In this document: piece by piece, positions 2 to 43,965 of the stretch
How positions within the stretch are numbered: position 1 is the first letter of the stretch
How the letters are laid out: every line of letters begins with the position of its first letter
Source: a virus
Length of the DNA stretch: 48,839 bases
Strand: one strand, 5' to 3'
IMG/VR virus record: IMGVR_UViG_3300030406_003844
Span: 1-48,839 of that record
Translations under genes and position numbers: made by a program
Notes under the pieces: generated by a model
The model's database searches: none
Seen by the model: the letters and a program-made list of their open reading frames with translations, nothing else
What the model was told of the DNA's origin: nothing

Positions 2-919
2 TTTGAATTTGTATCTTCCTTACACGGTGGCCCTGTTTTAGTCTTACCTATAGAGAACGCATTTGCAGAAATTACTGTACTCGGTCAAACTCTAAATTAT
101 GTTAATTATCCAAACTATGAAGATGGTAGTTCTAGGACTGAGGGATTAGCACAGATACCCACTCACCCACTTATCAATACGCCGGGTAAAAGAGCAGACG
201 AATTCATCACTTATCAATTGTCAAAATTGTTAACATCTACATTAGAAATAAGCGAAAGGGCAGTAAACGCTGCCGGTGATAAGACGATGGACAAGGTGTT
301 CACAACTGCAATCAAGAAAAGCGGAGATGGGTTTGAAACACGACTAGAGATAACTCAAGTCCATGCTACGTCACTTGGCACTGTTAATAACCAAATCCGT
401 CACAATTTCGGAGTTGGCCTTTTGCCTACAGTGCAAGGATTTACTGGTGGTAAAGCAGGTAAGAGGGTTAAATCCGCTGGTGATAAAGTGCAGGACATCT
501 TGGGTATACTTGCAAACAGTAACAATTTTGACACTGCTGCCACTAACAATTCTCTTGGTAATTTTGTTGACAAAATAGCAAACTTCGTTACTCAGCCGTT
601 TTACGGAGAAAGAGACAGCGGTGACTATATTTATGCTATACAGATACCTTATGATACTGGTGTGACAAAAGGCAATAGTGATTTAGATACACAGGTTGCA
701 CAAAGAAACCACTGGGTCATGACTGACGATGCGCCAACATTTGAAAAGATGGCTGTAAGTAATGACACCCATGCATCTAAGGATTATGCACCTGAACACG
801 ATGACAGCAGGCGTAACGGCATACACGGTATAATCACAGACTTCCATGTACATAGAGATGCTGAAATGAAAGCCTACGAGTTTGCTTTAAAATTCGTAGC
901 GGCTAATGTAATAATTTGA
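2..919 (+). CDS. Tail/baseplate-type structural protein, 5' end cut by window edge
   Basis: The frame is open from base 2 to the TGA at 917-919, so the gene begins left of the window; 305 residues are visible. A TTG at 218 is an internal codon, not the start. No family is recognised by name. Its second half contains KSAGDKVQDILGILAN and YAIQIPYDTG, and both stretches recur in the next gene (SKSAGDKVQDLIGIVSN, RGIQIPYDSL). The C-termini also align (HGIITDFHVHRDAEMKAYEFAL against RIIPEKLHVRYDAGNKYYAFSL, shown here only as short matching blocks). The two are therefore probably paralogous virion components. Position at the head of a tail/baseplate gene run suggests a tail or baseplate role (inference). 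Confidence 0.7.
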   Translation, partial: FEFVSSLHGGPVLVLPIENAFAEITVLGQTLNYVNYPNYEDGSSRTEGLAQIPTHPLINTPGKRADEFITYQLSKLLTSTLEISERAVNAAGDKTMDKVFTTAIKKSGDGFETRLEITQVHATSLGTVNNQIRHNFGVGLLPTVQGFTGGKAGKRVKSAGDKVQDILGILANSNNFDTAATNNSLGNFVDKIANFVTQPFYGERDSGDYIYAIQIPYDTGVTKGNSDLDTQVAQRNHWVMTDDAPTFEKMAVSNDTHASKDYAPEHDDSRRNGIHGIITDFHVHRDAEMKAYEFALKFVAANVII

Positions 920-2929: not shown

Positions 2930-2931
2930 AA

Positions 2932-5900
2932 ATGACTATACTGATTGACCCCGGACACGCTTTACTCTTCAACGGTATAACGGACGGTGTATTAGTTCCT
3001 CCAAACCTTAACATTGTGCATGGTAAAAACGATGAGAATCTCAAAACTTTACCCAATGTACTGCGCTCGTTTACTTTAGAAACTTGGATAGTACCCGATT
3101 GTGGCGGTATTGTTTACGAGTATGAGAATGTCATGCGATTGAGCGTGGGTACCCCTTCTAGTCCAGCACCCGCTACTTTTGAAATTAACTTAGAAAACGT
3201 GGCTGCTGGTACCACTAGTGTTTATGCATTAAACAGTGCAAAGCCGGTGCACAGCCCTACTGGTGATTTGGCTTATTGGGATGGAGTGTTATTCCCGTCA
3301 GCAAGTTTAGCGGTGCACGACTCATATAACTATCTCGACTCTACTGTAAATGATTCTACAGCCTTAAATGATGGTCACAGAGAATTGCTAAATGTCACAG
3401 TGACCTTTACTGGTAGAAGGTTAGCCATGCATATCAATGGCGATTTAGTAGTTTCAAAAGCCTTTGATGAAGTACAACAAGTTGTTTTGAATCCTTCAAA
3501 CATGTTTCTTGGGGGCAAAGGTGGAGAATATAGGGGTACCATAGAAGCAATTCATCTTTCAAGAGGTGTAAAGCCATCCGGTAGAGTTGCTTATGCTCCC
3601 GTAAAAAGTGACGATACAATAGCACTTTGGAGATTTGAAGAGCCGATCGAACCCATAACCACACAAGTTGTTACTCCGTCAATTTCAGCATCTACCAGTG
3701 CTAGTTCTACAATCAATATAGGTACGACTGCTGCTAAAGCATTAGCCAAAGAGTTAGCAGGTGACGGTATAACTGAAACCATCAATTTTACCGCATCGCC
3801 ACCTTGGAATTCACTAGGCTCTTACACGATAAAAAAATATGCAGCAACATCAACTAGTGATATTACCATACCTAAAGTGCCCTACAATATAATTGTCAAC
3901 CCTCTCGGCTACAATTCTACCACTGGTAAACCCACTGCAAAGGCACCTGAGCGTTTACGTTTGACAGCAATAGATGGCGGTGCAGGAACTATTACTGTAG
4001 AATCTATTCACCTTGACTTTGATGCTACCTCGAATGGTAGAAGAGGAGCGTTACAAGCACATGATGCTGGCTTCTTTGTGGTTGTTACTGGAGATTGTAT
4101 TGTTGATGGCGGTAATGGTAATGACTTCCAACCACAGGGTAGCGGAACACAATTTTCTCATAAACAAGGACAGGTTTGCATCGATGAAAGTGACTTTGAA
4201 AACCATGGGATTATGTTTTCTATGAGTATGGCTATTGATTCTGATAGTTACAATAAGTTTTCAGCATCTTCTGCTAATCCCGGCGACGGCTTTTACATAG
4301 GTCACTCAGGTAGACACACTCTAAATCACGTTAAGAGTCACCCGTTTATGGGTATTCTTCCACCTGTTTCTGATTTAGTTGTAGATAAAAAATTAGATGC
4401 ATCGGCTGATGTGATTTCTGCATCATTTGATTCTCAGTATTCAGACATCAAAGATACAGTGCCCATCAATTCAAAAATATCTGCTTATGATTCACATATT
4501 GCTAACAGGATTTCCAATCTCGCTCACAAAACTAAAGTCAAACAAATTGTAGAAAATGGTATGAGCGACATATCAGATACTCAAAGAGGTATACTCGCTT
4601 TGGGTGGTACAACATTTGACTCTAGTTTGTTCAATCTTAAATCGATTGGTGGCACAAGTGCATTGAGTGATTCTAAAGAAGCCGCTAGACATTTAGTCCC
4701 ATCTAGTGATGCGAGGATTGCGATACTTGATTTGCCTTCTTTATCTACTTACAATTATGCACCATTTATACAAGTGCATTACAATGCTGTTTGTCACAAC
4801 TCAATCAACTTCCCTGTCGCTGCTGCGTCTAGGATAGACTCATCTTTTACTAGCACATCTACAGCCATCAAGTTAGAAAGCATCAAATCTTTTGGCAAAG
4901 ATGGAGCAGTATTGTCTGCCGCTGACTTTTCTATAGGTGACACACCTGCAACAACAAACCCTTCTATAACTGCTACACTAAATCACACTACCAAAAAAGT
5001 CACGTTTAGTGCGGCTACCGACTCAGCATTCCAATCTGCAGACACTACAGGTGCTATTGTAAAATTAAGCATGAATGGTCCTTCCATAATGGTAACAAAG
5101 ACTGTACCTGATGTAAGCACAATTGTTACTGGTAGCACTTCTATTCTCGATCTTATTCACACTGCGTTAGATGCAGGAGATTTGGATATATATTCGCCCG
5201 GAGGCAGAATAGAAATTGACATGCCTGAAAACTTTGGCTTTACTGAGGGAGACTTAGAAGGAGATACAGAAGAAGGCACTGTTGCAGAACCAAAGTTAGA
5301 TTTCACACTATGTCCTGAAAATTACTTACCACTTACAGCAACGGACACTCCTGCTAAAACACCACAAGGCATAGCAGTTGCTAACGCTAATTTGTCTTCA
5401 AAGTCATCTCAATTTAGCAAGATAATAGTGTCCCGTAGTTATAACCCAACAAACCTAGAAGAAGTCGAAGATATGGCTAGGCAGTTGCCAGTTAATCGTA
5501 GAGTTAGGACTGGCTTACTAATTAACAATAACGGTGGCTATGCCGCCAATACTACCACTGCATTGACTGTAGATGGCGTGGACGCTAGAACAATATTTGC
5601 TGACGGGGACATAGTTTACAAAGTGGATGGTACTCAAGTTGGTACAATCAACCATACGGTAACTGAAACCACTATTCGCATATCAGGTAGCGGTGGAACA
5701 ACAGTCGCTTTGCAAGATAACGAAGAATTATTCATCGGTCCTATTGAACTAGGTACTGGAACAACAAATCAATCTACTGGGGTATACGAAATCTTTGATA
5801 TTATTGAGCACCAAGTATTAGGTAAAAAGGTAATTTTGACAGTGCAACCAAGCGATCGTAGGCGTTTCTCACAGTTAGCAAAACTAAGGTCAGATGCATC

Positions 5901-8900
5901 TACTCCTAATTCAATATCAATAGAATATCTTGTTTCGAGAGGCAGAGTATTGTCATTTGGTGATGAGGCTGATGGGACCTCTAGTCTGTTGGCCTACGGA
6001 CTTGTATCTGATATTGCGAGTGCCAGCGTCAGTGCAAAGGGTGATGGGTCACCTGATTCTCACATAGTGAAAGAAATCATGCCCGGAGCACCCGTAGTTA
6101 CAGTTACACTAGGTGGTCCCGGTCAAGGTGCAATCAATACAAAAGAAACTTGGAGCACCAGTCCCACTGCTAGAATGCCTTGGAGTACAAGGCGTGATTG
6201 CGTAGTAAATGGTGGTGCTGTAGACACTAGTGCTAGAACAATTACAGTGGTGCCTCTCAATAATCGTGCGACTGACTTACAATCTTGGGGAACATATTGC
6301 TTCCCAAAGGTAGGTAGAGTTTACCTTGAGATGCCAAGGACAGATGTAAATGAAGCAATTCAGTTTGCTTCCGCAGAGTACGCTTCAAAGACAGGTGTCA
6401 AGTTTACATTTGCATCGGGTAGTCATCAAGGCACTGGTAAGTTTGTTTTAGCAGATGGCAGCGAGGCAGATACGTTTAGTGATTGGGTTACTGCTGTTGG
6501 CTCTACAAACATAGTCGGAGGTAACCTGCATGTTGATGATAAATTCCTTGAAGAGTCTGTTTGTAGTGATGGTACTACTATCAATGATAGATTGTTCCAA
6601 ACCCTCAATACCGTGCAACACGACTATCAACTAGGCACACAGTATGCTAGTACTCGTGCTTTAGTAGAAATTCCTTTGTTTGAAGAATTCTTTTTCGATA
6701 ACCCTGACGAGGGTATCTTCCCCGGCCCTGACAACAGTATGAAGATACATATTGATGCCACTAGAACTGCTAGCAACTGGGCACCTAATCCAGTGGGTAG
6801 AAGGCATGAAGAAATTAGACCTCAAGACCCTGAAGTATTTGGTGCGTTTTCATATTCAATAGCAACTAATACTCACAGATCGGGTACTAAGATTACTGCT
6901 CCCTTTACTGATACGAGTGCTCCAATTTTGATTCATGTCGAAGATGCAAGTATATTCCCCATCCCTACCGCTGGCCCTACCGCTGTTGCAGGTATAGACG
7001 GCAGTGCTAGATTCCGCAGAGCATTTTTGCCGAGTGGAGAGTGGGTACTTTACATTGATAGAGATACAAATAACAATACAATCACAGCAGCATCAGCAGC
7101 AACTGCTGGTGGCAATTTTGCAATGAGCAAAAACTTCGTCAAAGAGTTTGCAGTGGGCGTACAGTTAACTCCGGGTCCGGGCTATCAAGACATGTCTTAT
7201 TCATCTATTGCTGACAACCCTCTCCTCAAGAGTGCTGGTTACGAAGGAAGGCGTTCTTTCTATTATGACAGGTCAAACGTAATGACGCAAGGTGGCAATG
7301 TCGATTACGGTATGAAGCAATATGTTAGTGCAGTTGAATTTAGAGCGGGACCTCGTGTCAATCCTCACCTTGACAGAATACAAAGTGGTAGAGCGAAAGG
7401 TTTAGTTTCTTACTTGAATACAAGCACGAATGTATTAGAGTTGCAAGATGCTAGCCTTTTCCCTGTAGATAAAGAAGGTGTAGATGGTCACACAGGTTAT
7501 CGCTACAGGCTGGCCTATAGAGATGCTAGCGGTACTTTGCATTACGCCTTTTACGAATCAATAACTAACACAACCATCACTCTCAACCACAGAGACACAG
7601 GTTTTACTCCTTCATTTAATGACGAAGTAGTGCTTGTCGATATGCATGCTCACCCTAGTACGATATATCCTGAAGTTAACGATAAAGCACTTTTGAACAG
7701 AAGTTGGGCTTACCCTTATGCTCCCGGTGGTCTTCGTGATGGTGATACTGTTTGGATGAACATGCACTATACAAATCCTCATTCAATTGAAGGATTGTTC
7801 TGTAAGAGCAGAGGCACACTAAACGAAGGTAAAGTTTGGACCGGTTTCAATGGTGGGCAGGGAACAATGAATGCTAACCCAAGAAGCAGCACACCTTTAG
7901 AGAACTTTTTGATTGGTAATACTTGTATAGAAACAGCAAAGAATTTTGTGCAACATGTCAACAAAACAATTGAGTTGAATTATGAGGCACTAGGTCTATC
8001 TGCTGACCTAGCACCCACAGTCGCATATTTAGACCCCTATCAATCAGATGATGAACATACTCGTGTTTTATTGTATGACGTAGCACATGACCGTGAGTTT
8101 ATTGCATTCCAAGACCTTTGGATGCAAGTTCAGAGTAGTGCTGATGCAACTAAGATAGGGACTGCGCCCAGCACCACTACAGGTGTTATTTCTCACAGTG
8201 ATGCAGCCTCCGGCTCTCAATTAGACGTGGCTTCCGGGTTCCCAAGTCAAAACAAATACCTCACTTCAACTACTAAGTCTCAGTTTATTGAAGCCGCATA
8301 TTCGCATCAAAGCACATGGAACGCTAGCACTCAAACCATACTTTCTCCGCATAGCCCCGATGTGGGTAACTATACAACGAATAGCGGTATGCCTAGAACT
8401 AATGATGCTGTAATCAACTCTGCTGATGCATTGTTATTGCATAAGCAAATTGATAAGAACTCAAGAGAGGCATCTACTTTCTTTGATACTCCTGATGGTA
8501 CTCGTGCTATACCTGCATTCCTAGCACTAAAAGGAATAAGGAGTAGCACTTTGGATTTGAGTGGGCACGAAGAAACTAGGCTCAATAATTTAGACCATTG
8601 GACTAAAATGGACTTCGTAAGAAGACTCACTGTTGATTTTGGTGAAGTTTCTTTACGAGATGGTGTTACCAATATAGAATCAGCCGCTCGTGAAGTTGTG
8701 CGTCTAATAAATCAAGCCGGTGCAAAAAATGGCAGGACTCATGCGAGGAAAGAAAAGGAGCGACATCTAGGTGAAAGCACTGGTTCTACTCACGATCCTG
8801 CACCATTTTGGGATGTAAAGAAAGGGTTCTCTAGTCACGATAAAGGAACGCATATGGGTTATGTTCGTGCTCATCTTGGTAGAGTAGTCCTTGACTCTAA

Positions 8901-11900
8901 CGGCAACAAAGGTTTCTCTGTTGTAATACACTCCACTGTTCCCGGTGCAGAGGGTCGAAATTTCTGTGCTTGGTTAGACAGTAGTCGTGCACAAACTCCC
9001 TATCGCCCACAGTACCTAATTGGTCACGGTGGTAGGTTCCGCAATTATTGGTGCCAACCTGATGAGATAACTGGTGAAAACATGCACCCTGCTCCTATGC
9101 CAATCAATAGATTTGGTAGACCGTTTGCCCCTATTACTACTTTGAAGGAATACATTCCTCCTGAAGAAACACTGGATGCGTTTGAAAACAATCTAAGTTT
9201 AGGGCCGGAAACTATTGCAAGTTCAACTCAAAAAACTGACACATTCCGTGAAAATGCTTCGGGTAGAAATTCAAACACTGTAGTCAATGAATCATTTGAA
9301 ACTAAAAGCCCATCATCTACACTAGTTGATGGATTAAGAGCAGGAACATCTGCACAAGCCCGTATTAATTTTGGTGGGCTAACACAAGCCGGTATACCGG
9401 GTTGGGCACCTAACACTGGAAGATGGGGCATGGGTCGAGATGGCGATGACAGATTCAAATCGATATATGGCAACGCATCTAACGCTTCCACTGCTATGCT
9501 AGGTAGCACAATAAATACCTCGGACAATGCTAGAGGTTACATACCGGAAGAGCAAATGAAGCCCACCAACATAGGTAACGGCAATTTGTATGGTATCAGA
9601 TTTGAAGACCACAGAGGTGACAACCACACAATCAGAATGGTATACAAAGAGTGTGACAAACCATTTGGTAACGACTTAACAATGGTACCGCCTACATTTG
9701 ACGAAGAGGTTGTGATTTACTTTGATGACAAAGATGTAGCACAGGGTGGGTTTACGATTGGTCGACATATGGTGGGCACTGGTGAAGTCTGCGGGGAGGT
9801 AAGCGGGGGTACGCCCAAGGAATACAAAGGTAATCTTTGGAACAATTACCCATCTCCTGCTGTAGGTATACATTGTGCGGTAACTCGCAGTTCAAGCACG
9901 GATGAAGAAATAGCGGTTGTCCTTTCTCCACCTTACGATTCAAGTGGTACTCTATCCCATCCCGACATTTTAGGCTACCTTGGATTTCCTGAGTCAGGGA
10001 TGCTGCAACTGACGATAGATGGCACAGGCGAAGAAGGTATTACAATTCATTACACGAGCAGGACTCATAACGACAAAAATGGCCCACACAAATTCTACGG
10101 ATGCAAAGGTGGGACTGGTGCTGCTATAAGTTCAGCGGATTATTTATTGAGTCCAAGAATCAATTTTACTAGTGTGTTAACGGATGAAGTGATTGCAGCA
10201 GCGTTTGAGTTTGCAATGACTATGCCTGATGCAAATGATAGAAGTGTTTCAGCAACTAGTTTTGATTGTACGCACATGTTTGCACCTGATGGTAAAACTT
10301 TAGGTGAATGGGGGGTAAGTCCCACTGCCATTAGAGTCAAGGTCAATAATAAAAATAGAACACCTCTCAGCAAATTATTCAATGTTTCAAGAAGCAAAGA
10401 TTGGGGATTGATGGAGGGTGCGAGCAGTGACGCAACCGTAACTTCAAAACACACTGGTGGACTTACTGACAGCGAAAGAGATGACGGTACAAGATTAGAT
10501 GTCGGCTATATTCCTGAAACCGTTTTGCACATCACTACTCGATACAGAGGCACTAACGCTAATACTGCTACACCGATCTTGGTAGACAGCCAAAACAATC
10601 AGTTAGACATATCGACTTGGCAAAGAAACCTTCGTGGTGAAAACTTTACTGGCGTAGCGGGAGACCACATAATTCCAAAGGTAGATAGCCCAATGATTAA
10701 ACTCAGTGCTAAGTCTTCAACCCGTCTGACTTTAGCGAGTAACACTTTCTTGTATTCTATTTGTGTGCCGGGTTCAGATGACCCCCAAAGTTGGGGTGAA
10801 AGATTTACTTTGTGGTTAGGGTCGGAAGAGTATGCTGAAGTTAAAAGTCAAAGAGATGGTTCTGATGCAGAAATAAAATTAGCATATGAGGCTGCCACAG
10901 GAACCAGTGCTAATTTTGCATCTACAGTTACTGCGACTGATATTCTTATGCGAAATGGTGATGTCAAAAATGGCATGAAAACAGATGGAATTCGTAGGGC
11001 TGGAAGCAAGATGTCTAGCCCGTTCCTCTACTTTAGAGGAGGAAGAGACAGCCCTGACCACTGGGTGCCACTTTACTTTGGTGGTGGCTTTAGTGGTGTT
11101 GTGATGGATGTTAATGATGGTACTCAGAATGACTATGGGGATTTCTATACTCACCCATATGCTGGTGGCCCAACTGGTTCATGTGGTTTACAAAATGTTG
11201 GAGAAATCGCTGGCTCTTATGCTCTCCTCGATACTAATGCTATGCTGGCTATGTTCCCCGGTACACCTTATTTAGATGACCATAAGGGTAAAAATAACCC
11301 ACCGTTGTTTAATCAAGACGGTATTTTGCCATTCGATATGGCTAAAGGTGCGAACAACAAGGCTACAGGCACGACCTATACTGACGGTACAAATTCAGTT
11401 TCAGTTAACTTACCAAGTCCAATTATTCTCCGGTTTGCACATCCCCACGCTAGGTATAGTTCATCAGGTAATGCCGCTGACCAAACTGTATACATTGTGT
11501 TTGGTCCGGGTCAGGCTTTCCCACATAACAGTGCTGACTTTGAGCCACAAGGATCGAATATAGTGACCCTTGGTAATGGGTACAGTGCAGTTCCTATTGA
11601 AATGACTGGCGGTGGTGAAACTTTCTTACCTAATCAATTAGCCAACGGTGGCAGTTCAGTTAGCGGATTCAATACAACACTAACCCCCTCTGCTCATTTA
11701 CCAAGGACATCCTTTTTCCAAAAGAACAGAGTTAGTGGATTTAATTATGATATGAATTGGGAGCCGACTAAAGGTTTCCCAAGTTTAGGTGTACACGCTA
11801 GTAGCGGTGATACGTTTGACCAAACATATGACAAGGCGTTTTATTATGAAGGTGCAATCTTCAGCGTTCCTCATTTTTCATATCCACCGGCAGCACATCC

Positions 11901-14900
11901 TTTTAACCATGTAATTGATGATTTGGCTGGTAATACTTTAGAAAGTGCTTCTCATCCTCAAACAAAGAAGGTATTCGGACTTTGGCACATGGATGGAGGC
12001 TATCATCCGGGTGGTCATTTCCTTGATAACCATGTCAATATTAATCCAAAACATCCAGTAGAAAACGGAAGGCTAGCCACAGGTGATACTAACAAACACA
12101 ATGTGTCTGCGTTTAGACCATGTGGGTTATTAGCCGAAGCATATCTTAGTAAATATGGAGGCTCGCCCAATAACCAAGTAAGTGATGAAAATGTTGTACT
12201 AATAGATGCTACTCGTGTACAAAACGCAGAAGAGTTAGGGGCAGTCATCAGTGCATCTATCAATACATTCCCCGGTAAAGACCCGCTCAAGGCTATTGGT
12301 GGTACATTCCTTCCGTCTATGCAAAGTGCCCACAAGCAGGACAGATACGGTTGGGTGGAATTAGATATTACTGGCTATGCACCTGAAGGTGGCGGAGGCG
12401 GAGCAACATTAACTGTTAATAGTGCTCTTACTACGCTTCCTGAGTATGGATGGTTGAGAGTGAGTAGTGGAGGGCAAGCGGGTTATGCTCCGTACATAGA
12501 TACTGCTAGACCGGATTCTAGTACGCTTATCTTCAATCTTGGCAAAGGACCTGCATCTAGTATGCCCTCTGCTATTGCTATATTAGATCCGGGAACTGGC
12601 GGGTACTCCGCAGCGTCAGGGTTAGCAACATCAGGAGGTAGCGGTACAGGTACAGACCTGACTGTAGAGATAACAAGTGTGAATGGCTCCGGCCAAATCA
12701 CAGGTATAACAATCACCAATCCGGGTTCAGGATATGTAAGTGCTCAAGATGTAATTGTTCAACAAGGAGGCTCTTCAAATGACGCTCGTATTACTATAAA
12801 TTCTGTGACTCGTAATACTAATATTACCGACCCTGAGAATATGAGAGATGTCGCCGTAGACAACTCATTTAAGGCATATGTTTGGACTAAAGCAGGTACA
12901 CATAGACTCAACAATGACGCATCAGTTACTGCTCGTGACCATATGTGTCAGGTGCATTACAACGGCCTCATTGACGCAATAGATAGAACCAAGCCGGTTG
13001 GTGCAGTTGGTTGGGCAGGCGAAGCATATTCTTACTTGAATTCTTACACGGGTACTCAGATAGGTTCAGGACTTTACCCTGCTGGACTTGGTGCATGGCA
13101 TCCTTTCCTCGGCTTCAACCCATATGGTGCAGCAGAAACCTGTCTTGCATCATCTGCTCCCGTAGGAACCGGAGATACAGCCTCGGCAACATTTTCTGAA
13201 TATTGTGTAAACGGTTTATCTTCAAGGCATTTGATTGCAATTACAAATGAAAGTGAGTTACCTCTCATTGCTAAAGCAGACAGAGATGGTATATTGTGTT
13301 CAGGCGATTGGCTAATGGCGAAAGAAAACGGTAACATTTTACACGCTGGTACCATTAAATGGGACACTGATAAAGTGCACAACAAATCACGCTATGTGGC
13401 TTACGCTAACGCTGGTCCTCGTGTAGAGACACAGATGCACAGCGGCTTCACTAGACCATTCGATAATTCAGATTACCCTGCATCGGGCAGTGCACCTACT
13501 GATGCTGAATGGCACCGTACCATACAATCAGGTGACATGGTGCAGGCAAACCCCTGCTTACATGCAACTGGTGATTTGTTTTGGGATGAAAGTATAGTTA
13601 AAGGTTCTAACTTCCATGAAAATTTTGGAACACATGGTGTGGAATGTGTGGGCAATAGCGGCTTGAAAGATTACTTGAATCCCTCTGCAGCATCTACTGC
13701 TATGCCTCACCCCGGATTATTTGGTTTCTATGATAAACGATCTGCTGCTCGTAATTTTTCAGCAGAGCACATAGTTTGGAAGCGAATGGATGGAGGAAGC
13801 CTAACTATGCCTGCTGCTAACGCAAGAGGACTGGGTGCTGTGCCTTGGGTACAGCGCAAAATCACCGGTACTGAGCAATATAGATTAGTGGGTGAAAAGG
13901 TATTGGGTAATGTACGATTTAGTTTTGAATCGACTAATTCTGCTATGTTCCCTATAATACAGGCTCAAGAATTATCGCATCCTCAGTTAGCAGAACAACA
14001 CCCTGTGCAAATTAGAAATGCATTGATGATACCAAATGAAGAACTCCAATTCCAAAGTATGACTGTAGTGGATGATACAGGTCAAGAGCATAGACTAGAA
14101 GGTGGCTCCCCTCTAGGTACGGTCATCATGGACTTTAGGCATGTAAGTGATAGAGAAATTGAAGGTTTAGCACCAGCATTAGCAGGCACAGGTGTGTCTC
14201 CTAATATGAAAATTAGATTGCCTAATCCTGATGAAATACCCGGTAACATAATTGTTAGACCGGGCTTTGATAGAATCCAAGCATATCAAAATGAAACTAT
14301 TGGTTCAGGTGGACTTCAGCACCCAGCACAACCTGTACAACACATAACGGACATGTTTGATAATAAATACGCTGGTCCTCGTCTGTGGCCTACTTGGGAA
14401 AATAACGGATGGGAGCATGTAAGCCAAGACGGTACGGATGTGTCTGTTAAAAAGAATGAGCATAGATTAGACTTCCCTGCATCTACACTAGAGGGTTGGC
14501 AAGACCATACCGGTAACAGACCGTTGTCTACATCTTATGAACCGCATGACAGAAGCCTGTATTTCCATGTAACAAAGATGGGTGTCACTTCCACTCACAG
14601 ATATGGTGTAGAAGAAACACCTTACATAAGTCATACTACCAATACAATTGTTACTGGTGGTGTACTCTCTTCTTCGGATTGGACAGATAGCACTGAACAA
14701 AGTGGAGGCAGATACTTTTTACGAGTCTATGACCAAATAACGGGCAAAGGAACTATTGTATCTTATACAGGTATAGATAGTGATGGCGGTGACACATTTA
14801 CTGGTGTTGTATTTTCTCCCGGCTTTGAGCAGTTTATTACAGACAGCAATGAAGGCTCATTGCTAATTGTTCCGAGTTATTACATGCCTGCAGGTAGCAC

Positions 14901-17900
14901 CCGTATTTTTGCATCTCGTAGACTTCGTGACCACAGCGAGTATAGTGGTGCAAGCCCTGATATGAAAATTACAGATTGGTTCAATATGTATAGCAATTTA
15001 CCAGCAAGTACTGGTAGTTTTGCAGACCCATCTATACCTTACCAATATATTGCAGGTGCCTCAAGTCCTAAGATGACACCTATGCCTATTCCAAGAATGG
15101 GTCATCATTATGTCAACCCAACCATGGCTTTGTTACCGGGACATTATGCTCACCCTGCTTACCAAAGAATATATGATTTAAATCAAAGTTGTAAGACATC
15201 TAGTAACGACTTTGCTATCAACAGTTTAATTGGTACAAATGAAGGAACACGCACCAGTACGACTGCGACTACGACTACGCACGAGCCGGGTCGTGACCCT
15301 TACATTTACTTCTCAGGACCAACGGCTGCATTCTCTCCATCCGACATACACGGTGGAGGATTTACATTGTTGACTGAAACTAAAATTAAGTACGAAGGCT
15401 ATGGTGTAGCAGCGTCTGTAGGAGATGCAGGTACTAAGAACGCTGCTGGTGGACACGAGTTAGTGTTAGAGGCGGCAGGTACATACACTCTCAATGACCA
15501 CTTCCCCGATCCGATGGAGGTAGGGGCTTACCAAATTGTCATACAACCAAACTTATTCAAACAGCAACTCAAAGGATTCCATGCGAACGGTCCTGCTACA
15601 GATGTACCCGATGGTTCAGTTGTAGAACTGACTGGGCAGCAGGTAAATACAGTTATTGCAATTGAACAAGACATCAGTACTAATGGAGCACATACACTCA
15701 TATTAGCAGACGCTATAATGGCAGATGTCAGAGGTTGCGAAGTAATAATTAATGAAATAATGCTTGATATAGAACCTGATTACGGTAGTCATTTCACTAA
15801 TATCCCCGTCTTAGGATTATACAATCCATTAGGTGTACAAGAAACTAGTTCGCCTTCACTTAGCAGAAGAAGCATGCCTTACAGACCCGGTATGTTTAGT
15901 AGTGCTACACCGGGTTACACGGTGACTATTCCTTGGTGGGGTATATTGCACAAAGATGGTGCTGATAGTTTCGCCGCTCGAAAGTTTAGACACTTAGAAT
16001 GGCATAAGCCTGACAACTATTACGAATTCTGTAGGATGTCTTACGGTTGTATTGGAGCACAACTTACTATTGCAGGCTATCCTACATCTTTCATGGACAT
16101 TTACGAAGCACACAATCGTAACAGAAGCCTGAATCCTACCTGTGTAGTTCTTTCTACTAATCAGGGAGGTAGCACGATTACCGTTGACAACAATGATTTA
16201 TTCCCTGTCAAGCCTTATTATGGAGAAGAGTTAGAATATACTAAGAATGGTATAACTTACACCGCTACTTATGCTAATCGTACTGGTACTTTAGCACATG
16301 CCACTTTGGGCGTGTCTACTACATTTGAAACCGTTAGCGGTAGCGCAGAATTTTGGGCTAATATTGCTGCAGATACGGTCTTGAAATTGACTAGACCTTA
16401 CAATACCTATTCTTCAGATACTGTATTTTTGGATTCTAAAGTTAGCGTCTTAGCAAAACTATTCCCACAAATTCCTAGTGGATTGGATAAATCCCTAAAA
16501 GATGGCAGTGGGGACACAAACAGCCTACATTTGCCTGACGCATATTTGTGTCTGTGGCATCCAAATCTAGGCAGACCGTTTACTTGGTACAGCGATACTG
16601 CTACAGGTGGCACCCGTGACTTCTACGACAAGACTGGCGTGGCTGATACACCTGTTGACAAGAAACCGTACAATCACGTACCTGAATACTTTGAAACTAT
16701 ACACTACCATGATTTCAATTATGTTGCTAGTAAAGGGCCGTTTGGATTTGCAATGAAGTGGGTTGCCCCGCCACATGATGCCGATGCTGATTTGTTTACT
16801 GACGACTTCCACGACGGTACTATATACACCGCAGCACAGATTGATTCTCGTGTTATCGATATTGGTCAAACAATGAGTCACCAAGGTGGTACGTTCAATT
16901 CTACTAAATACAATTTTGCAGGGTTTTGGCCCGGTGGCTCCCACGGCGGAGGAGCAGTAAGTCGATTAGAAACTTATGCTAGTGCGTTGATAGGTTGGGG
17001 TGGCGAAACTTATGGAATGGATTGTGGAGGTTTTGATGACAATACTGGGATAAGAACACGAACCTATGCAGAAATGACATCAGCATCAGCATATGCTCGT
17101 AACTATTGTTTCGGTTATAGGTTTGGAATAAGGCAGGCTTACAATAGACCCCGTTGGGCTAATTATGTTCGTGGCTGGTTAGAAGTGGCTAATTCAAACG
17201 CCTTACTCGGTTATTATCATGGTCCCTTTGTACAGCAAGACAACAAAACAGGCGGTTGGGATTATGTCGGTGCTGATAGTGGCGGTGGTGCTCCGAGTGA
17301 TGTCGATTTCAACGCTACTTACATAGGAATACTAGAGAGATTAACACAAATAAGTGCATTGTTGAATCAAGACCAAATCGGTAGACAGGTTAGATATAGT
17401 GATGGCAGAAGAATGACAGAGGCGTTTGGTTGTGCTGTCAGAACTATACGAAATGCATCTACAGTAAGAAGAGAATATCCCGGTGACCATGCAGGTAAGA
17501 ACATAGCAGATTTAGCAGAGGCTCACAAATATTACATGGTCGACTGGTGGGGTAATACCCGTGGTGAAGATGTTCGCCGATTCCCAGTTAGAGGGTTTGG
17601 TGTAAGACCGTCATGGGATCCTGAAGATGCTTACAAAGATACCAATGTTAGTCACAGACCAGCCGCACACAGTTTGTTTGCAGGAGATGGAAATGACCGC
17701 TATAGTGGCAACGCAAACACGGCTAACAATGATGCTAGTAACATGGGTGTTGCCGACTGGTTTAATCCAGCGAGTGCTATGCGTGTTGGCGACAGGGGTG
17801 ACGGAAGGGGTGTCCGTTGGCCTACTGTGTTCAATGAAAGCATGCTCATGAATGTCAGTGAAACACATGAGGCTACAGGTCTAGTTTTGTCTCACAGCAC

Positions 17901-18990
17901 AGCAGAGCCTGCGTTTGGTCAGGGACTAGTTCGACCAAGTAACGAAACTCTACAAGCAGGCGAAGTCGATAGAGGTATCAGTGCAAGACTCGATCTAGCA
18001 GACGAAGACGGATTACTCAAACCGAGTGCATCTGTTGGCGAAGGAGTAGAAACAATTACTGCTGACACTAGGTTAGTAGACCCTGTTGCTAGAGATGATG
18101 TTAGAATGGGATTAGATGTAGATACCATTGCTGAATTAAATGATGGTGTCAGCAGAGAATATGTCATCATGTCTACAGAGGCAGCGAGTTTGCACACAGA
18201 CAGAGAGGTAGGACAGAGAACCAATCTAAGAGGAGCCATGACTGGTGGTAGTCGCACATTAGGTAACTTCGATATGACTGCTCTAAATTTCAGCACCAAT
18301 CCAGTTGCCGGAATTACAAGATTCTCTAACGCTCATGCTTATTGGCCTCTAGGTGGCACTTACGTTATGGAATGGAGCAAATATTCAGGAGTAATAGATG
18401 TGAAAGGATGGGGACAAACTGGTGTATCTACTTCGTCTAACCCATACCAAGATGCTAACCACGACCCTATCATACAGAATACTAACTTCACTGACTCCAA
18501 GATAGAATTCCTGTATAGGCCAGCACAAGTGTTGGATAGTAAGCACGTACAGTTCTTCAGACCTGCGCCTGTGATGAAGAGTAGTGCAGACCAAGTCGGT
18601 TCTAACTTCTATAGAGCAACAGCCGGAGGTAAGTACGGACTGTTTACAAGTGATGCTCCGGGTGCCTTGACAGGCACTCCAAGTAGTCCACCGTATGCAC
18701 CTGTTTACACAATAACTCCCGGCTCTAGTTTAACAGTACCTACAAGCCAAGGGCCTAATATTGAGGGTGTCGATGTGACGGGGTATGACAAGACCGATAT
18801 CCGATCTCCGGTAGCAAGAGTGGTCATGTCTGAGAATACACTTGAACACTTTAGAGCAGACGCAAGTCGTAAATCGCCTGATGATGAGGAAGGTAATTAC
18901 AATGTGCAGCCGAGGCACAGCCAAACACTACATCCAAAAGGTAGCGACGGCGATGTAACTTATAACTCAGGAGAACATAGCGGGGAGTGA
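2932..18990 (+). CDS. Giant ~5350-residue virion protein with LamG-like N-terminus
   Basis: One uninterrupted frame of 16 kb encodes 5352 residues. I place the start at the ATG at 2932, five bases after GGGGTG, rather than the GTG at 2926 that overlaps the upstream stop. Residues about 45-236 resemble a LamG/concanavalin-like fold (SFTLETWIVP, LNVTVTFTGRRLAMHINGD, TIALWRFEE). Further on are several 'TxxITVDNxxLFP...GxxxxY' beta modules (about residues 863-940, 1318-1390, 1490-1570, 3900-3980, 4405-4465). A glycine-rich segment at about 3222-3290 (GSGQITGITITNPGSGYVSA) is of a type common in marine phage structural proteins. No long coiled coil was seen, so it does not look like a tape measure. 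The flanking hub- and fibre-like genes suggest a tail-tip, baseplate or host-contact protein (inference). Confidence 0.85.
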   Translation: MTILIDPGHALLFNGITDGVLVPPNLNIVHGKNDENLKTLPNVLRSFTLETWIVPDCGGIVYEYENVMRLSVGTPSSPAPATFEINLENVAAGTTSVYALNSAKPVHSPTGDLAYWDGVLFPSASLAVHDSYNYLDSTVNDSTALNDGHRELLNVTVTFTGRRLAMHINGDLVVSKAFDEVQQVVLNPSNMFLGGKGGEYRGTIEAIHLSRGVKPSGRVAYAPVKSDDTIALWRFEEPIEPITTQVVTPSISASTSASSTINIGTTAAKALAKELAGDGITETINFTASPPWNSLGSYTIKKYAATSTSDITIPKVPYNIIVNPLGYNSTTGKPTAKAPERLRLTAIDGGAGTITVESIHLDFDATSNGRRGALQAHDAGFFVVVTGDCIVDGGNGNDFQPQGSGTQFSHKQGQVCIDESDFENHGIMFSMSMAIDSDSYNKFSASSANPGDGFYIGHSGRHTLNHVKSHPFMGILPPVSDLVVDKKLDASADVISASFDSQYSDIKDTVPINSKISAYDSHIANRISNLAHKTKVKQIVENGMSDISDTQRGILALGGTTFDSSLFNLKSIGGTSALSDSKEAARHLVPSSDARIAILDLPSLSTYNYAPFIQVHYNAVCHNSINFPVAAASRIDSSFTSTSTAIKLESIKSFGKDGAVLSAADFSIGDTPATTNPSITATLNHTTKKVTFSAATDSAFQSADTTGAIVKLSMNGPSIMVTKTVPDVSTIVTGSTSILDLIHTALDAGDLDIYSPGGRIEIDMPENFGFTEGDLEGDTEEGTVAEPKLDFTLCPENYLPLTATDTPAKTPQGIAVANANLSSKSSQFSKIIVSRSYNPTNLEEVEDMARQLPVNRRVRTGLLINNNGGYAANTTTALTVDGVDARTIFADGDIVYKVDGTQVGTINHTVTETTIRISGSGGTTVALQDNEELFIGPIELGTGTTNQSTGVYEIFDIIEHQVLGKKVILTVQPSDRRRFSQLAKLRSDASTPNSISIEYLVSRGRVLSFGDEADGTSSLLAYGLVSDIASASVSAKGDGSPDSHIVKEIMPGAPVVTVTLGGPGQGAINTKETWSTSPTARMPWSTRRDCVVNGGAVDTSARTITVVPLNNRATDLQSWGTYCFPKVGRVYLEMPRTDVNEAIQFASAEYASKTGVKFTFASGSHQGTGKFVLADGSEADTFSDWVTAVGSTNIVGGNLHVDDKFLEESVCSDGTTINDRLFQTLNTVQHDYQLGTQYASTRALVEIPLFEEFFFDNPDEGIFPGPDNSMKIHIDATRTASNWAPNPVGRRHEEIRPQDPEVFGAFSYSIATNTHRSGTKITAPFTDTSAPILIHVEDASIFPIPTAGPTAVAGIDGSARFRRAFLPSGEWVLYIDRDTNNNTITAASAATAGGNFAMSKNFVKEFAVGVQLTPGPGYQDMSYSSIADNPLLKSAGYEGRRSFYYDRSNVMTQGGNVDYGMKQYVSAVEFRAGPRVNPHLDRIQSGRAKGLVSYLNTSTNVLELQDASLFPVDKEGVDGHTGYRYRLAYRDASGTLHYAFYESITNTTITLNHRDTGFTPSFNDEVVLVDMHAHPSTIYPEVNDKALLNRSWAYPYAPGGLRDGDTVWMNMHYTNPHSIEGLFCKSRGTLNEGKVWTGFNGGQGTMNANPRSSTPLENFLIGNTCIETAKNFVQHVNKTIELNYEALGLSADLAPTVAYLDPYQSDDEHTRVLLYDVAHDREFIAFQDLWMQVQSSADATKIGTAPSTTTGVISHSDAASGSQLDVASGFPSQNKYLTSTTKSQFIEAAYSHQSTWNASTQTILSPHSPDVGNYTTNSGMPRTNDAVINSADALLLHKQIDKNSREASTFFDTPDGTRAIPAFLALKGIRSSTLDLSGHEETRLNNLDHWTKMDFVRRLTVDFGEVSLRDGVTNIESAAREVVRLINQAGAKNGRTHARKEKERHLGESTGSTHDPAPFWDVKKGFSSHDKGTHMGYVRAHLGRVVLDSNGNKGFSVVIHSTVPGAEGRNFCAWLDSSRAQTPYRPQYLIGHGGRFRNYWCQPDEITGENMHPAPMPINRFGRPFAPITTLKEYIPPEETLDAFENNLSLGPETIASSTQKTDTFRENASGRNSNTVVNESFETKSPSSTLVDGLRAGTSAQARINFGGLTQAGIPGWAPNTGRWGMGRDGDDRFKSIYGNASNASTAMLGSTINTSDNARGYIPEEQMKPTNIGNGNLYGIRFEDHRGDNHTIRMVYKECDKPFGNDLTMVPPTFDEEVVIYFDDKDVAQGGFTIGRHMVGTGEVCGEVSGGTPKEYKGNLWNNYPSPAVGIHCAVTRSSSTDEEIAVVLSPPYDSSGTLSHPDILGYLGFPESGMLQLTIDGTGEEGITIHYTSRTHNDKNGPHKFYGCKGGTGAAISSADYLLSPRINFTSVLTDEVIAAAFEFAMTMPDANDRSVSATSFDCTHMFAPDGKTLGEWGVSPTAIRVKVNNKNRTPLSKLFNVSRSKDWGLMEGASSDATVTSKHTGGLTDSERDDGTRLDVGYIPETVLHITTRYRGTNANTATPILVDSQNNQLDISTWQRNLRGENFTGVAGDHIIPKVDSPMIKLSAKSSTRLTLASNTFLYSICVPGSDDPQSWGERFTLWLGSEEYAEVKSQRDGSDAEIKLAYEAATGTSANFASTVTATDILMRNGDVKNGMKTDGIRRAGSKMSSPFLYFRGGRDSPDHWVPLYFGGGFSGVVMDVNDGTQNDYGDFYTHPYAGGPTGSCGLQNVGEIAGSYALLDTNAMLAMFPGTPYLDDHKGKNNPPLFNQDGILPFDMAKGANNKATGTTYTDGTNSVSVNLPSPIILRFAHPHARYSSSGNAADQTVYIVFGPGQAFPHNSADFEPQGSNIVTLGNGYSAVPIEMTGGGETFLPNQLANGGSSVSGFNTTLTPSAHLPRTSFFQKNRVSGFNYDMNWEPTKGFPSLGVHASSGDTFDQTYDKAFYYEGAIFSVPHFSYPPAAHPFNHVIDDLAGNTLESASHPQTKKVFGLWHMDGGYHPGGHFLDNHVNINPKHPVENGRLATGDTNKHNVSAFRPCGLLAEAYLSKYGGSPNNQVSDENVVLIDATRVQNAEELGAVISASINTFPGKDPLKAIGGTFLPSMQSAHKQDRYGWVELDITGYAPEGGGGGATLTVNSALTTLPEYGWLRVSSGGQAGYAPYIDTARPDSSTLIFNLGKGPASSMPSAIAILDPGTGGYSAASGLATSGGSGTGTDLTVEITSVNGSGQITGITITNPGSGYVSAQDVIVQQGGSSNDARITINSVTRNTNITDPENMRDVAVDNSFKAYVWTKAGTHRLNNDASVTARDHMCQVHYNGLIDAIDRTKPVGAVGWAGEAYSYLNSYTGTQIGSGLYPAGLGAWHPFLGFNPYGAAETCLASSAPVGTGDTASATFSEYCVNGLSSRHLIAITNESELPLIAKADRDGILCSGDWLMAKENGNILHAGTIKWDTDKVHNKSRYVAYANAGPRVETQMHSGFTRPFDNSDYPASGSAPTDAEWHRTIQSGDMVQANPCLHATGDLFWDESIVKGSNFHENFGTHGVECVGNSGLKDYLNPSAASTAMPHPGLFGFYDKRSAARNFSAEHIVWKRMDGGSLTMPAANARGLGAVPWVQRKITGTEQYRLVGEKVLGNVRFSFESTNSAMFPIIQAQELSHPQLAEQHPVQIRNALMIPNEELQFQSMTVVDDTGQEHRLEGGSPLGTVIMDFRHVSDREIEGLAPALAGTGVSPNMKIRLPNPDEIPGNIIVRPGFDRIQAYQNETIGSGGLQHPAQPVQHITDMFDNKYAGPRLWPTWENNGWEHVSQDGTDVSVKKNEHRLDFPASTLEGWQDHTGNRPLSTSYEPHDRSLYFHVTKMGVTSTHRYGVEETPYISHTTNTIVTGGVLSSSDWTDSTEQSGGRYFLRVYDQITGKGTIVSYTGIDSDGGDTFTGVVFSPGFEQFITDSNEGSLLIVPSYYMPAGSTRIFASRRLRDHSEYSGASPDMKITDWFNMYSNLPASTGSFADPSIPYQYIAGASSPKMTPMPIPRMGHHYVNPTMALLPGHYAHPAYQRIYDLNQSCKTSSNDFAINSLIGTNEGTRTSTTATTTTHEPGRDPYIYFSGPTAAFSPSDIHGGGFTLLTETKIKYEGYGVAASVGDAGTKNAAGGHELVLEAAGTYTLNDHFPDPMEVGAYQIVIQPNLFKQQLKGFHANGPATDVPDGSVVELTGQQVNTVIAIEQDISTNGAHTLILADAIMADVRGCEVIINEIMLDIEPDYGSHFTNIPVLGLYNPLGVQETSSPSLSRRSMPYRPGMFSSATPGYTVTIPWWGILHKDGADSFAARKFRHLEWHKPDNYYEFCRMSYGCIGAQLTIAGYPTSFMDIYEAHNRNRSLNPTCVVLSTNQGGSTITVDNNDLFPVKPYYGEELEYTKNGITYTATYANRTGTLAHATLGVSTTFETVSGSAEFWANIAADTVLKLTRPYNTYSSDTVFLDSKVSVLAKLFPQIPSGLDKSLKDGSGDTNSLHLPDAYLCLWHPNLGRPFTWYSDTATGGTRDFYDKTGVADTPVDKKPYNHVPEYFETIHYHDFNYVASKGPFGFAMKWVAPPHDADADLFTDDFHDGTIYTAAQIDSRVIDIGQTMSHQGGTFNSTKYNFAGFWPGGSHGGGAVSRLETYASALIGWGGETYGMDCGGFDDNTGIRTRTYAEMTSASAYARNYCFGYRFGIRQAYNRPRWANYVRGWLEVANSNALLGYYHGPFVQQDNKTGGWDYVGADSGGGAPSDVDFNATYIGILERLTQISALLNQDQIGRQVRYSDGRRMTEAFGCAVRTIRNASTVRREYPGDHAGKNIADLAEAHKYYMVDWWGNTRGEDVRRFPVRGFGVRPSWDPEDAYKDTNVSHRPAAHSLFAGDGNDRYSGNANTANNDASNMGVADWFNPASAMRVGDRGDGRGVRWPTVFNESMLMNVSETHEATGLVLSHSTAEPAFGQGLVRPSNETLQAGEVDRGISARLDLADEDGLLKPSASVGEGVETITADTRLVDPVARDDVRMGLDVDTIAELNDGVSREYVIMSTEAASLHTDREVGQRTNLRGAMTGGSRTLGNFDMTALNFSTNPVAGITRFSNAHAYWPLGGTYVMEWSKYSGVIDVKGWGQTGVSTSSNPYQDANHDPIIQNTNFTDSKIEFLYRPAQVLDSKHVQFFRPAPVMKSSADQVGSNFYRATAGGKYGLFTSDAPGALTGTPSSPPYAPVYTITPGSSLTVPTSQGPNIEGVDVTGYDKTDIRSPVARVVMSENTLEHFRADASRKSPDDEEGNYNVQPRHSQTLHPKGSDGDVTYNSGEHSGE

Positions 18991-18992
18991 GC

Positions 18993-20681
18993 ATGGCAGT
19001 AGGTAAGAATCTTGCAACTGGTCGTGCTGATGCGACACAGAATGTCATAATGAAGGCTGTGCGTAAGCCTAAATTTGTAGATAATGCTGTCCGACACGCT
19101 GAATATACTAAACAACAAAGTGGTTTTTTGGTGAAAGCACCGACATCTAGTGACTTCATGCCTACTCATGATAGGACCTATTCTTTGATTGAAGAGGAAG
19201 ATACAATTAGGCTAGTGCATACTGTAAGCAAAGGACACAGATATACTGGTAATGTATTCGTTAATGACGAAAAATTAGACAAGACTTCTCAATCTACTTT
19301 ACCCCCATTAATTATTGGTGCAAATAATCCTGAACAATTATTAGCACCTGCATCTATAGAAACTACTACAGTAGATGCAACTGATGGGTCAAAAATTAGA
19401 CTTGGAAATCTAAAAGGCTTAGAATTAAAACAAATTGGTTTTACCGACAAAAAGGTACGGATTGGTCAGAAAGTAAACGTAGGGCTAAGGACTACGGATT
19501 TAGTTAGTAGATTAGCAAAAGGTAGCACTAATTCTCTGAACGGACTTACTATCAAAAACCCTAGTGGAACATTCGTAGCACAGGATTTCTATGGAACTGA
19601 CGGGGTTAGTGCTATGCGGTTCTTAGCAAAGCACGATGGTTACAAAGTCAGCACAGATCAGTTTGGTAACTTACACTATTCCCACCAACAAAAGCATACT
19701 AGAGAACACATAATTACACAAACTATGGTTTCTGAAGGCTCAATTGAAACAGAGGGTGAAAGCACCCTCAACCGTGTGATAGTCCGTGGAAAGTCTCGTG
19801 CTAACAATGACCAAAATGTAGTGCAAGTTGACGACTTTGGGCCACAAAAAGACACTGTCAATGAGATATCAGGGGGCATCCATGTCCCTACTGCTATAAC
19901 AAAGGCCAGTGCTAAGGCTATTGGTCGCAGAGTATTAGCCATGACGAAGAAAGCAAAGGGTAATGAAAAGTTGATGGGAACATTGATGTCTAGTAGAGTT
20001 CAACCGGGCGACATAATATCTTACGAAACAATCACTGACTCTGATAGAAAGATAGTTTTGTCGACTAGGCACTATTTAACTCAAAAGAAATCAGACATAA
20101 ACATCAACTCTGTCGATGGTTCTATAGAAGATATATTGCAGCGGTTCCAAGAGGTTGATATTGGTTCCAGTACTCGTGATAATGAAGAAAGGAACAGACA
20201 ATTCAATCAAGAAGAATTTGCAACTGCATTTGATTACAAGTTCAAGATTACATGGCGTGTAGAGACTAGAGAAGTCAAAGATCCAACTACAGGTATCGTG
20301 ATTGGTATACCTAATAGGAACACTGTGCATGGTAGAATGCACTTAAAGTCTACAGGAATACTAATCAACAACGGGAGTGGTCACGCCATAGGCACTACCA
20401 CCTTCACTACCGATGGCACAAACGCAAACTCAATATTTACATCAGGGGTTATCAGTGCTGGTGGTGCAGATGCATTCGTTTACAAGGCCAACGGTAACCT
20501 ACTAGGTAAAGTTAGCAGCGCAACTACTACTTCAGTTGTCATCGCCACTGCCTCTCCGCATGCAGTTGCAGATGACGAAGAATTATTCCAAATCTCAATA
20601 GACTCACTACCTGAGTCTGCTAACAGTCATCTAAAGATTAAGATGAATAAAGGTACATTCTCAAGCAGAAGGAGGGGCTGA
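18993..20681 (+). CDS. Baseplate hub-like protein
   Basis: A 562-residue protein starting at the ATG at 18993, preceded by GGGGAGTGA, which also contains the giant gene's stop. The segment AMRFLAKHDGYKVSTDQFG followed by NLHYSH resembles the 'LA...GY...D..GNL.Y' element of hub proteins of the gpD/gp27/gp44 type. The segment RVQPGDIISYE followed by ISVD-like strands and a C-terminal DILQRF fits the end of such hubs. Residues about 455-536 carry a beta insert (GILINNGSG, FVYKANGNLLGKV, DDEELFQI) clearly related to giant-protein residues 863-940. Its place between the giant protein and a fibre-like gene supports a baseplate-centre role. The assignment rests on motif memory and position, with no search run. 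Confidence 0.55.
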   Translation: MAVGKNLATGRADATQNVIMKAVRKPKFVDNAVRHAEYTKQQSGFLVKAPTSSDFMPTHDRTYSLIEEEDTIRLVHTVSKGHRYTGNVFVNDEKLDKTSQSTLPPLIIGANNPEQLLAPASIETTTVDATDGSKIRLGNLKGLELKQIGFTDKKVRIGQKVNVGLRTTDLVSRLAKGSTNSLNGLTIKNPSGTFVAQDFYGTDGVSAMRFLAKHDGYKVSTDQFGNLHYSHQQKHTREHIITQTMVSEGSIETEGESTLNRVIVRGKSRANNDQNVVQVDDFGPQKDTVNEISGGIHVPTAITKASAKAIGRRVLAMTKKAKGNEKLMGTLMSSRVQPGDIISYETITDSDRKIVLSTRHYLTQKKSDININSVDGSIEDILQRFQEVDIGSSTRDNEERNRQFNQEEFATAFDYKFKITWRVETREVKDPTTGIVIGIPNRNTVHGRMHLKSTGILINNGSGHAIGTTTFTTDGTNANSIFTSGVISAGGADAFVYKANGNLLGKVSSATTTSVVIATASPHAVADDEELFQISIDSLPESANSHLKIKMNKGTFSSRRRG

Positions 20682-20682
20682 T

Positions 20683-21039
20683 ATGCCATTATTAAATCAA
20701 GGGACAAGGTTTGTAATCGACTCACTAAAAGACAGAATTAATCAAGTGGTTTTTGGGTTTGGGGGCACGTTGGCTACTCAAGACGACGCTGGTGCAGCAC
20801 AACCCGCAATAGTAGTAACACCTGTAGTTAGAGTGTTAGATGACCATACGTTATCAGTTGAGGCAAAGGTCCCACTTAGTAGCACGTTCAATAGTCCTCT
20901 AAAAGAAGTGGTCATTCAATACAAGAACCCATCAGATGCGACTGATACCACCGCTATAGCAAGGTATACATACGATTCTATAACTAAGACAAGCAATAAC
21001 GAAATTGTATTTTCAGCAATTATTGAGGTGACACCATGA
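20683..21039 (+). CDS. Small baseplate/tail-associated protein of unknown function
   Basis: A 118-residue protein. The ATG at 20683 lies 7 bases after a GGAGG at 20671-20675, one base past the upstream stop. After a short helical start (RFVIDSLKDRINQVVFGFGG) the rest alternates like beta strands (IVVTPVVRVLDDHTLSVEAKV, KEVVIQYKN, NEIVFSAIIEVTP). This resembles small beta-sandwich proteins that sit between baseplate and fibre genes in tailed viruses. No family is recognised. It overlaps the fibre-like gene by ATGA, so the two are probably translated together. Confidence 0.65.
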   Translation: MPLLNQGTRFVIDSLKDRINQVVFGFGGTLATQDDAGAAQPAIVVTPVVRVLDDHTLSVEAKVPLSSTFNSPLKEVVIQYKNPSDATDTTAIARYTYDSITKTSNNEIVFSAIIEVTP

Positions 21040-35723: not shown

Positions 35724-35887
35724 ACAATACACCTCTCAAGTATCTTTTTTCTCCATCCTTTCTTTGAAGTACATGCTTTACACACTAAACCCTTGCCAAA
35801 CAAGTCACTAAATTGTATGTTGGAATTTGGGTCATCCCTATTCCTATCACAAATTAAGCATCTTCTATGTACATCCGAAAGCCTCAT
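35720..35887 (-). CDS. 55-residue four-cysteine zinc-finger protein
   Basis: I start it at the ATG at 35887 in the ATGA overlap with the upstream gene (MRLSDVHRRCLICDRNRDD). CLIC near residue 11 and CKAC near residue 36 form a classical four-cysteine zinc site. The tail is basic (SKKGWRKKILERC). It ends in an ATGA overlap with the next microprotein gene. Function unknown; nucleic-acid binding is plausible. Confidence 0.68.
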   Translation of the reverse strand: MRLSDVHRRCLICDRNRDDPNSNIQFSDLFGKGLVCKACTSKKGWRKKILERCIV

Positions 35888-43953: not shown

Positions 43954-43965
43954 ATTCATTCCTCC
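43951..43965 (-). promoter_or_regulatory. Junction cassette GGAGGAATGAATATG
   Basis: An exact copy before the ParB-like gene; the upstream product ends DEEE. Confidence 0.75.

Follow-up and report, generated by a model that had tools for sequence, protein, structure and literature searches.

To our knowledge, no magrovirus has been cultured, and neither virion proteomics nor microscopy of magroviruses was found in the literature. One study reports magroviruses as one of the most abundant groups of marine viruses and counts their LamG genes among the auxiliary metabolic genes (PMC10160649); the ICTV profiles describe their virions as predicted only (PMC10768690, PMC12999244). Among the described archaeal tailed viruses, HVTV-1, HCTV-1 and HHTV-2 (Druskaviridae, Saparoviridae) resemble the lineage studied here in having a homologous connector, tail terminator, tail tube, TAC, tape-measure C-terminus and hub, encoded in the same order, and HHTV-2 gp63 has an annotated LamG domain. 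However, these haloviruses have neither a chaperonin nor the very large protein that is the subject of this study and that is termed giant in the following: between tape measure and hub, HVTV-1 and HHTV-2 have a gene of ~150 aa alone, whereas giant occupies this interval in the lineage studied here.

The window, i.e. the whole stretch of 48,839 nucleotides that was analysed (IMG/VR record IMGVR_UViG_3300030406_003844), encodes PolB, an ERCC4 nuclease, an archaeal primase, an RFC-like clamp loader and a thermosome in a module that runs opposite to the morphogenesis module, and such a gene set has been described for magroviruses (PMC5332604, PMC10768690, PMC12999244). An HK97 MCP related to that of the Druskaviridae, the portal, TerL and the protease are encoded in relatives, outside the region that corresponds to the window. 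By gene content, the window can be assigned to a magrovirus-type genome, of which it is a fragment, within the thermosome-bearing lineage of Magrovirales, and the putative hosts are Poseidoniales/MGII archaea, as assigned in the same studies (PMC5332604, PMC10768690, PMC12999244). The nearest near-complete relatives have 97-109 kb. In a phage record collection without magroviruses, the best-covering matches of the window PolB are haloviruses, at 24-25% identity. PolB is whole in the window and consists of two adjacent ORFs in G013, G015 and G022, with the split at about residue 433. GC and AT skew change sign at ~22400, near the junction of the rightward tail and the leftward replication module. 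The window also encodes a pyrimidine dimer DNA glycosylase, a DNA repair gene (35884-36438; Pyr_excise, 2.6e-8), and, in the leftward module, a ParB-N-like protein (43213-43980; E 3e-4).

The frame of giant is open from a GTG at 2926 to 18990 on the plus strand and comprises 5,354 codons with zero internal stops. As the GTG is not conserved and relatives such as L013 retain only the equivalent of the ATG at 2932, translation most likely starts at this ATG, giving a product of 5,352 aa. The stop of the upstream gene at 2929 lies two bases ahead of the ATG, and giant would overlap this stop if it started at the GTG; at the 3' end, the downstream gene begins at 18987, within the last codons of giant. 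Such overlapping or abutting codons with both neighbours resemble a translationally coupled operon. Relatives of giant are encoded on at least 413 IMG/VR stretches, and among the IMG/VR loci fetched, 58 distinct orthologues are complete (5,100-6,362 aa, median 5,439) and align end to end, also in nine-sequence alignments. In comparison with four relatives, dN/dS is 0.060-0.066 (about 0.065 over the whole length), and pN/pS stays below 0.24 in each 250-codon block. Split copies are few (G005, 1652+3702 aa; L086, 960+4424 aa; L082, 3364+1861 aa), and as these splits lie at differing places, they do not point to a conserved gene boundary. A preliminary description of the window had claimed a single gene of ~16 kb with a frame open for about one third of the window, and had named assembly or frame errors that conceal several genes as the finding that would speak against it. 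Such errors were looked for, and the ORF was intact in many independent contigs. Giant is thereby confirmed as one real gene that is neither an assembly artefact nor a product of fused genes.

Table 1. Features of giant and its surroundings in the window (positions are those of the window).
Feature	Position	Strand	Basis or remark
Distal-tail gene g824, 3' part, truncated at window edge	2..919	+	synteny with G005/G013
g671-like distal-tail protein, 666 aa	929..2929	+	387-416 aa in other clades
giant gene	2932..18990	+	5,352 aa from ATG 2932; 5,354 aa from GTG 2926
LamG/LNS-like jelly-roll domain, giant N-terminus, ~aa 1-240	2932..3645	+	AlphaFold, Foldseek, Pfam
Shared beta module, giant aa ~860-940	5503..5745	+	hhalign 98% con559, 87% tail tube; hub C-terminus match
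'DASLFP' beta-insert copy 1, giant aa 1483-1548	7372..7569	+	self-comparison
Optional 'GSGY' beta module, giant aa 3215-3300	12568..12825	+	PHROG 460, E 1.8e-6
'DASLFP' beta-insert copy 2, giant aa 4397-4454	16114..16287	+	self-comparison
Baseplate-hub-like protein g564, 564 aa, gp27/YqbQ/Phage-tail_3 type	18987..20681	+	Pfam, hhalign
Shared beta module copy, hub aa 456-534	20352..20588	+	similarity to giant aa ~860-940
g118, 118 aa conserved beta-rich tail-module protein, unnamed function	20683..21039	+	
g395, 395 aa beta-rich protein, possible fibre	21036..22223	+	weak Phage_depo_C match, 0.037
Group II chaperonin (thermosome), convergent with tail module	22468..23964	-	PF00118, 2.8e-128; NCBIfam thermosome

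The surroundings of giant (Table 1) can be read from the relatives G013 and G005, in which the gene order is TerL, portal, a large variable gene, protease, MCP, small connectors, con559 (connector), tail terminator, mtp689 (tail tube), TAC, a small helical gene, g824, g671, giant, g564, g118 and g395, followed by the convergent thermosome gene. Profile-profile comparisons with HVTV-1, HCTV-1 and HHTV-2 gave 95-98% for the connector, 95% for the terminator, 93-97% for the tail tube, 70% for TAC and 82-84% for the tape measure. The hub orthologue in L102 has Pfam matches to YQBQ (1.2e-5) and, above the cut-off, to Phage-tail_3 (2.7e-5), and the hub family aligns with the HVTV-1 gp133/HHTV-2 gp51 profile at 84% in hhalign. 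Synteny together with these matches upholds the earlier placement of giant downstream of tail genes and upstream of a hub-like gene, and by gene order giant belongs to the late morphogenesis operon, where the tape-measure and distal-tail genes precede it and the hub gene follows.

Several further genes of this region vary among relatives. The g824 and g671 proteins, both encoded upstream of giant, are paralogues (hhalign 100%), and several other clades have a single version of ~387-416 aa. In several relatives, extra small genes of ~150-205 aa separate giant from the hub (G005 52421-53601; L025 20100-20696), and L438, L443 and L441 have long ORFs of ~744-1,170 aa downstream of giant, possibly fibres or receptor-binding proteins. 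In G005, a helix-rich gene of 1,307 aa is located between head and tail genes (79345-83268; L050:1-3924), and its G013 counterpart has 147 aa. The gene between portal and protease encodes 1,817-1,939 aa (G013 L034:5204-10657; G005 87709-93528) with low conservation and without PHROG match, and its product is possibly ejected from the virion.

As to the distribution of giant, its C-terminal part was found on 16 of 21 marine MCP-bearing contigs, including all those longer than 53.1 kb; the five without it have 44.8-53.0 kb. In another contig set, for which a halovirus MCP was the starting point of the ranking, the N-terminal part was found on 12 marine contigs, and the four marine contigs without it (G064, G073, G074, G076) apparently end near the MCP, judging from MCP position and contig extent. 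Giant is absent from the halovirus-like records G057, G058, G059 and G075. Every sufficiently long related MCP-bearing contig thus appears to contain giant, which we claim for the sampled thermosome-bearing lineage only; GroEL-encoding magrovirus groups have been described (PMC5332604) and lie outside this sample. Neither GTDB genome contigs nor, in a tblastn search with the central 1,200 aa, INPHARED gave a match to giant.

In agreement with the beta-rich composition and the lack of a tape-measure coiled coil that had been noticed before, giant is beta-rich with low helix propensity and has no coiled-coil stalk, and no transmembrane segment was seen. An AlphaFold model of aa 1-1200, based on 45 sequences, reached a pLDDT of 84.8 and a pTM of 0.79, and Foldseek matched its first ~240 residues to neurexin LNS (probability 1.0, target-normalised TM 0.55-0.60). 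Of nine relatives, one had a weak match to Pfam Laminin_G_3 (E 0.0012). The model thus predicts a LamG/LNS domain for aa ~1-240 only: of the LamG-like modules assumed in the preliminary description, the N-terminal one could be substantiated, and none was confirmed elsewhere in giant. Foldseek matches to botulinum binding domains (target TM ~0.23) were discounted, as they reflect the common jelly-roll fold only and have no functional meaning. For aa ~240-1200 (~960 residues), no separate PDB match was among the 50 Foldseek matches listed. The AlphaFold model of aa 4160-5354 was unusable (pLDDT 52), and no fold is therefore claimed for this part. Profile searches with both halves of giant against the PDB gave only chance-level matches, and the profile searches altogether gave almost only the Laminin_G_3 match and module-level PHROG matches. 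In all, ~4,100 residues are without recognised fold. No enzyme or polyvalent-protein domains were detected by Pfam and PHROG with the whole protein or by NCBIfam with the first ~3,860 aa, and giant thus lacks the several enzymatic domains that define a large polyvalent protein.

In the self-comparison of giant, the two 'DASLFP' inserts are the single like pair above 30% probability (91% in hhalign), which makes giant a long unique sequence and not an array. The previously noted repeated beta-insert modules are therefore real as far as this pair and the module at aa ~860-940 are concerned, which recurs in other tail proteins and is 40% identical to the hub C-terminus (E 1e-6), but there is no wider internal repetition. 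An apparent homology of giant to g564 and g824 was discarded, as the alignments were contaminated by giant fragments and the short beta module alone survived their removal. The most conserved parts are the LamG domain, aa 4000-4250 and aa 5000-5250. Occupancy is low or conservation weak at aa 601-700, 2601-2700 and 3201-3300 (occupancy 0.24 in the last, i.e. ~24% of relatives), and close relatives differ most at aa ~500-600, 1500-1600 and 3000-3300. In the alignments, giant appears as a scaffold with a conserved core, in which beta modules are optional and variation or insertion occurs at discrete sites.

The reading that we favour, with a confidence somewhat above even, is that giant is a distal-tail (tip or baseplate) structural protein that is assembled with the hub and serves the contact with the host surface. 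This reading is based on the syntenic morphogenesis module and the codon overlap with the neighbours, on the beta modules that giant has in common with connector, tail tube and hub, on the LamG fold and the absence of transmembrane segments and enzyme domains, on the conserved core with its discrete variable sites, and on the co-occurrence with the MCP. Moreover, there is a precedent in the structurally solved archaeal siphovirus HFTV1, whose hub is a trimer that includes a carbohydrate-binding domain and whose tail tip also has fibres (PMC12494034). We infer from these data the virion presence, tip location, copy number, oligomeric state, ligand or glycan binding and triggering role of giant. 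Giant would be expressed from the late operon along with tape measure, distal-tail proteins and hub, and probably few copies would assemble around the hub to a large adhesion or host-contact body. The N-terminal LamG domain and the inserted beta modules may attach to the host surface by binding its glycans or S-layer components. The conserved core could hold the tip together and relay the binding signal to the hub, which would result in DNA release. Two observations speak against this reading: the LamG domain is strongly conserved, unlike a host-range determinant, and no fold was recognised in the C-terminal part and in much the greater share of the middle.

What else could giant be? It could instead form side fibres or wrap around the tail. 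A very long side fibre or whisker with a receptor-binding tip, emanating from tail or baseplate, would account for the LamG and beta modules, and genes downstream of giant look like fibre genes in some relatives. However, giant is non-repetitive over 5,354 aa, co-linear and conserved at its C-terminus, and thus has neither the internal repeats nor the variable C-terminal tip of a repetitive trimeric tail fibre; as a hypervariable tip and a collagen-like or coiled-coil stalk are also absent, we consider a side fibre unlikely. The size of giant, the protease encoded in the morphogenesis module and the three weakly occupied or weakly conserved regions would also suit a precursor polyprotein from which the viral prohead protease or host proteases release several virion proteins, but 58 complete orthologues consist of one ORF without any recurrent split site, and no repeated cleavage-like linker was seen, which renders such a processing distinctly improbable.

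A tape measure, or another tail-lumen or ejected protein, would fit the location of giant directly downstream of the tape-measure position. This possibility is already largely refuted and is hardly credible, as giant is low in helix, is not the long alpha-helical protein with TMP profile match that a tape measure would be, and coexists with a separate tape-measure gene in the clades examined. In the clade of the window, this gene has 136-163 aa and ends with the motif TDRTDKRxLAxEI (L035:365-847; L030:14103-14525); in other clades, it is found at the end of a gene of 403-593 aa that matches tape-measure profiles, and the length of giant is unchanged between clades with mini and long tape measures. 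The idea that giant substitutes for a tape measure, which was considered when the clade seemed to have none, was abandoned when the motif was detected on the 136-163 aa gene and on the longer genes of other clades. In HFTV1, a tape measure of 341 aa corresponds to a tail of 560 A (PMC12494034), and by this ratio a tail of ~23-26 nm would be predicted for the clade of the window. A role outside the virion, for example as an adhesin that is secreted or displayed on a surface or as an enzyme that acts on glycans, would be in line with the LamG fold, but the late operon, the strand, the codons overlapping with tail genes and the beta modules common to giant, tail tube and hub make this very improbable.

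The chaperonin gene was present in all 16 near-complete giant-bearing genomes tested, and the 14 gene products that were compared with the window thermosome are 44-69% identical to it. Among further divergent records, 9 of 11 have a chaperonin (43-56% identity), and four haloviruses without giant have none. It is a speculation that the chaperonin may help to fold giant, and common ancestry alone could explain the co-occurrence. That the lineage depends on a non-repetitive single-chain virion protein of ~570 kDa with mostly new fold, for which the adjoining group II chaperonin is a co-inherited dedicated folder, we regard as doubtful; if such a link is true, it would provide a testable reason for the presence of a chaperonin in magroviruses.

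The size of giant alone is not new, as PHROG profiles reach 6,136 positions. What is new is the giant family, which occurs across the whole magrovirus lineage sampled, is unique and non-repetitive in sequence and is encoded beside the hub, and no earlier description of the family was found in a literature search that did not cover Philosof 2017, Zhou 2023 and Prabhu 2025. With ~15% of the genome, its conservation and its position next to the hub, giant is the first candidate for a role in host attachment, and it can serve as lineage marker and as a large pool of new folds. The data also suggest that magrovirus LamG matches counted as auxiliary metabolic genes may belong to virion proteins.

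How does giant compare with characterised tail proteins? The HFTV1 hub gp44 and tail fibres are likewise distal-tail proteins of an archaeal tailed virus that follow the tape measure and have a proposed carbohydrate-binding domain (PMC12494034), but gp44 has only 954 aa, and hhalign detected no similarity of HFTV1 tail proteins to giant and its neighbours. The Tal/gpJ tail-tip proteins of siphoviruses are also encoded after tape measure and distal-tail gene, and a host-contact role is proposed for them as for giant; in contrast to them, giant starts with a LamG domain and is several times larger, and its gp27-like hub is a separate downstream gene: no gp27-like fold or Phage-tail_3/YqbQ match was detected in giant, and the match falls in the next gene. 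The giant virion structural proteins of PHROG, phrog_701 (6,136 positions) and phrog_2885 (4,179 positions), are comparable in size and have small mobile beta modules in common with giant, but the similarity is at chance or module level only, without overall homology. The sole full-length match of aa 1-1200 in the viral structure library is BFVD A0A1B1IU10, which covers this entire N-terminal part with 29% identity (E 4.9e-94) and is a member of the giant family that is already contained, unannotated, in UniProt.
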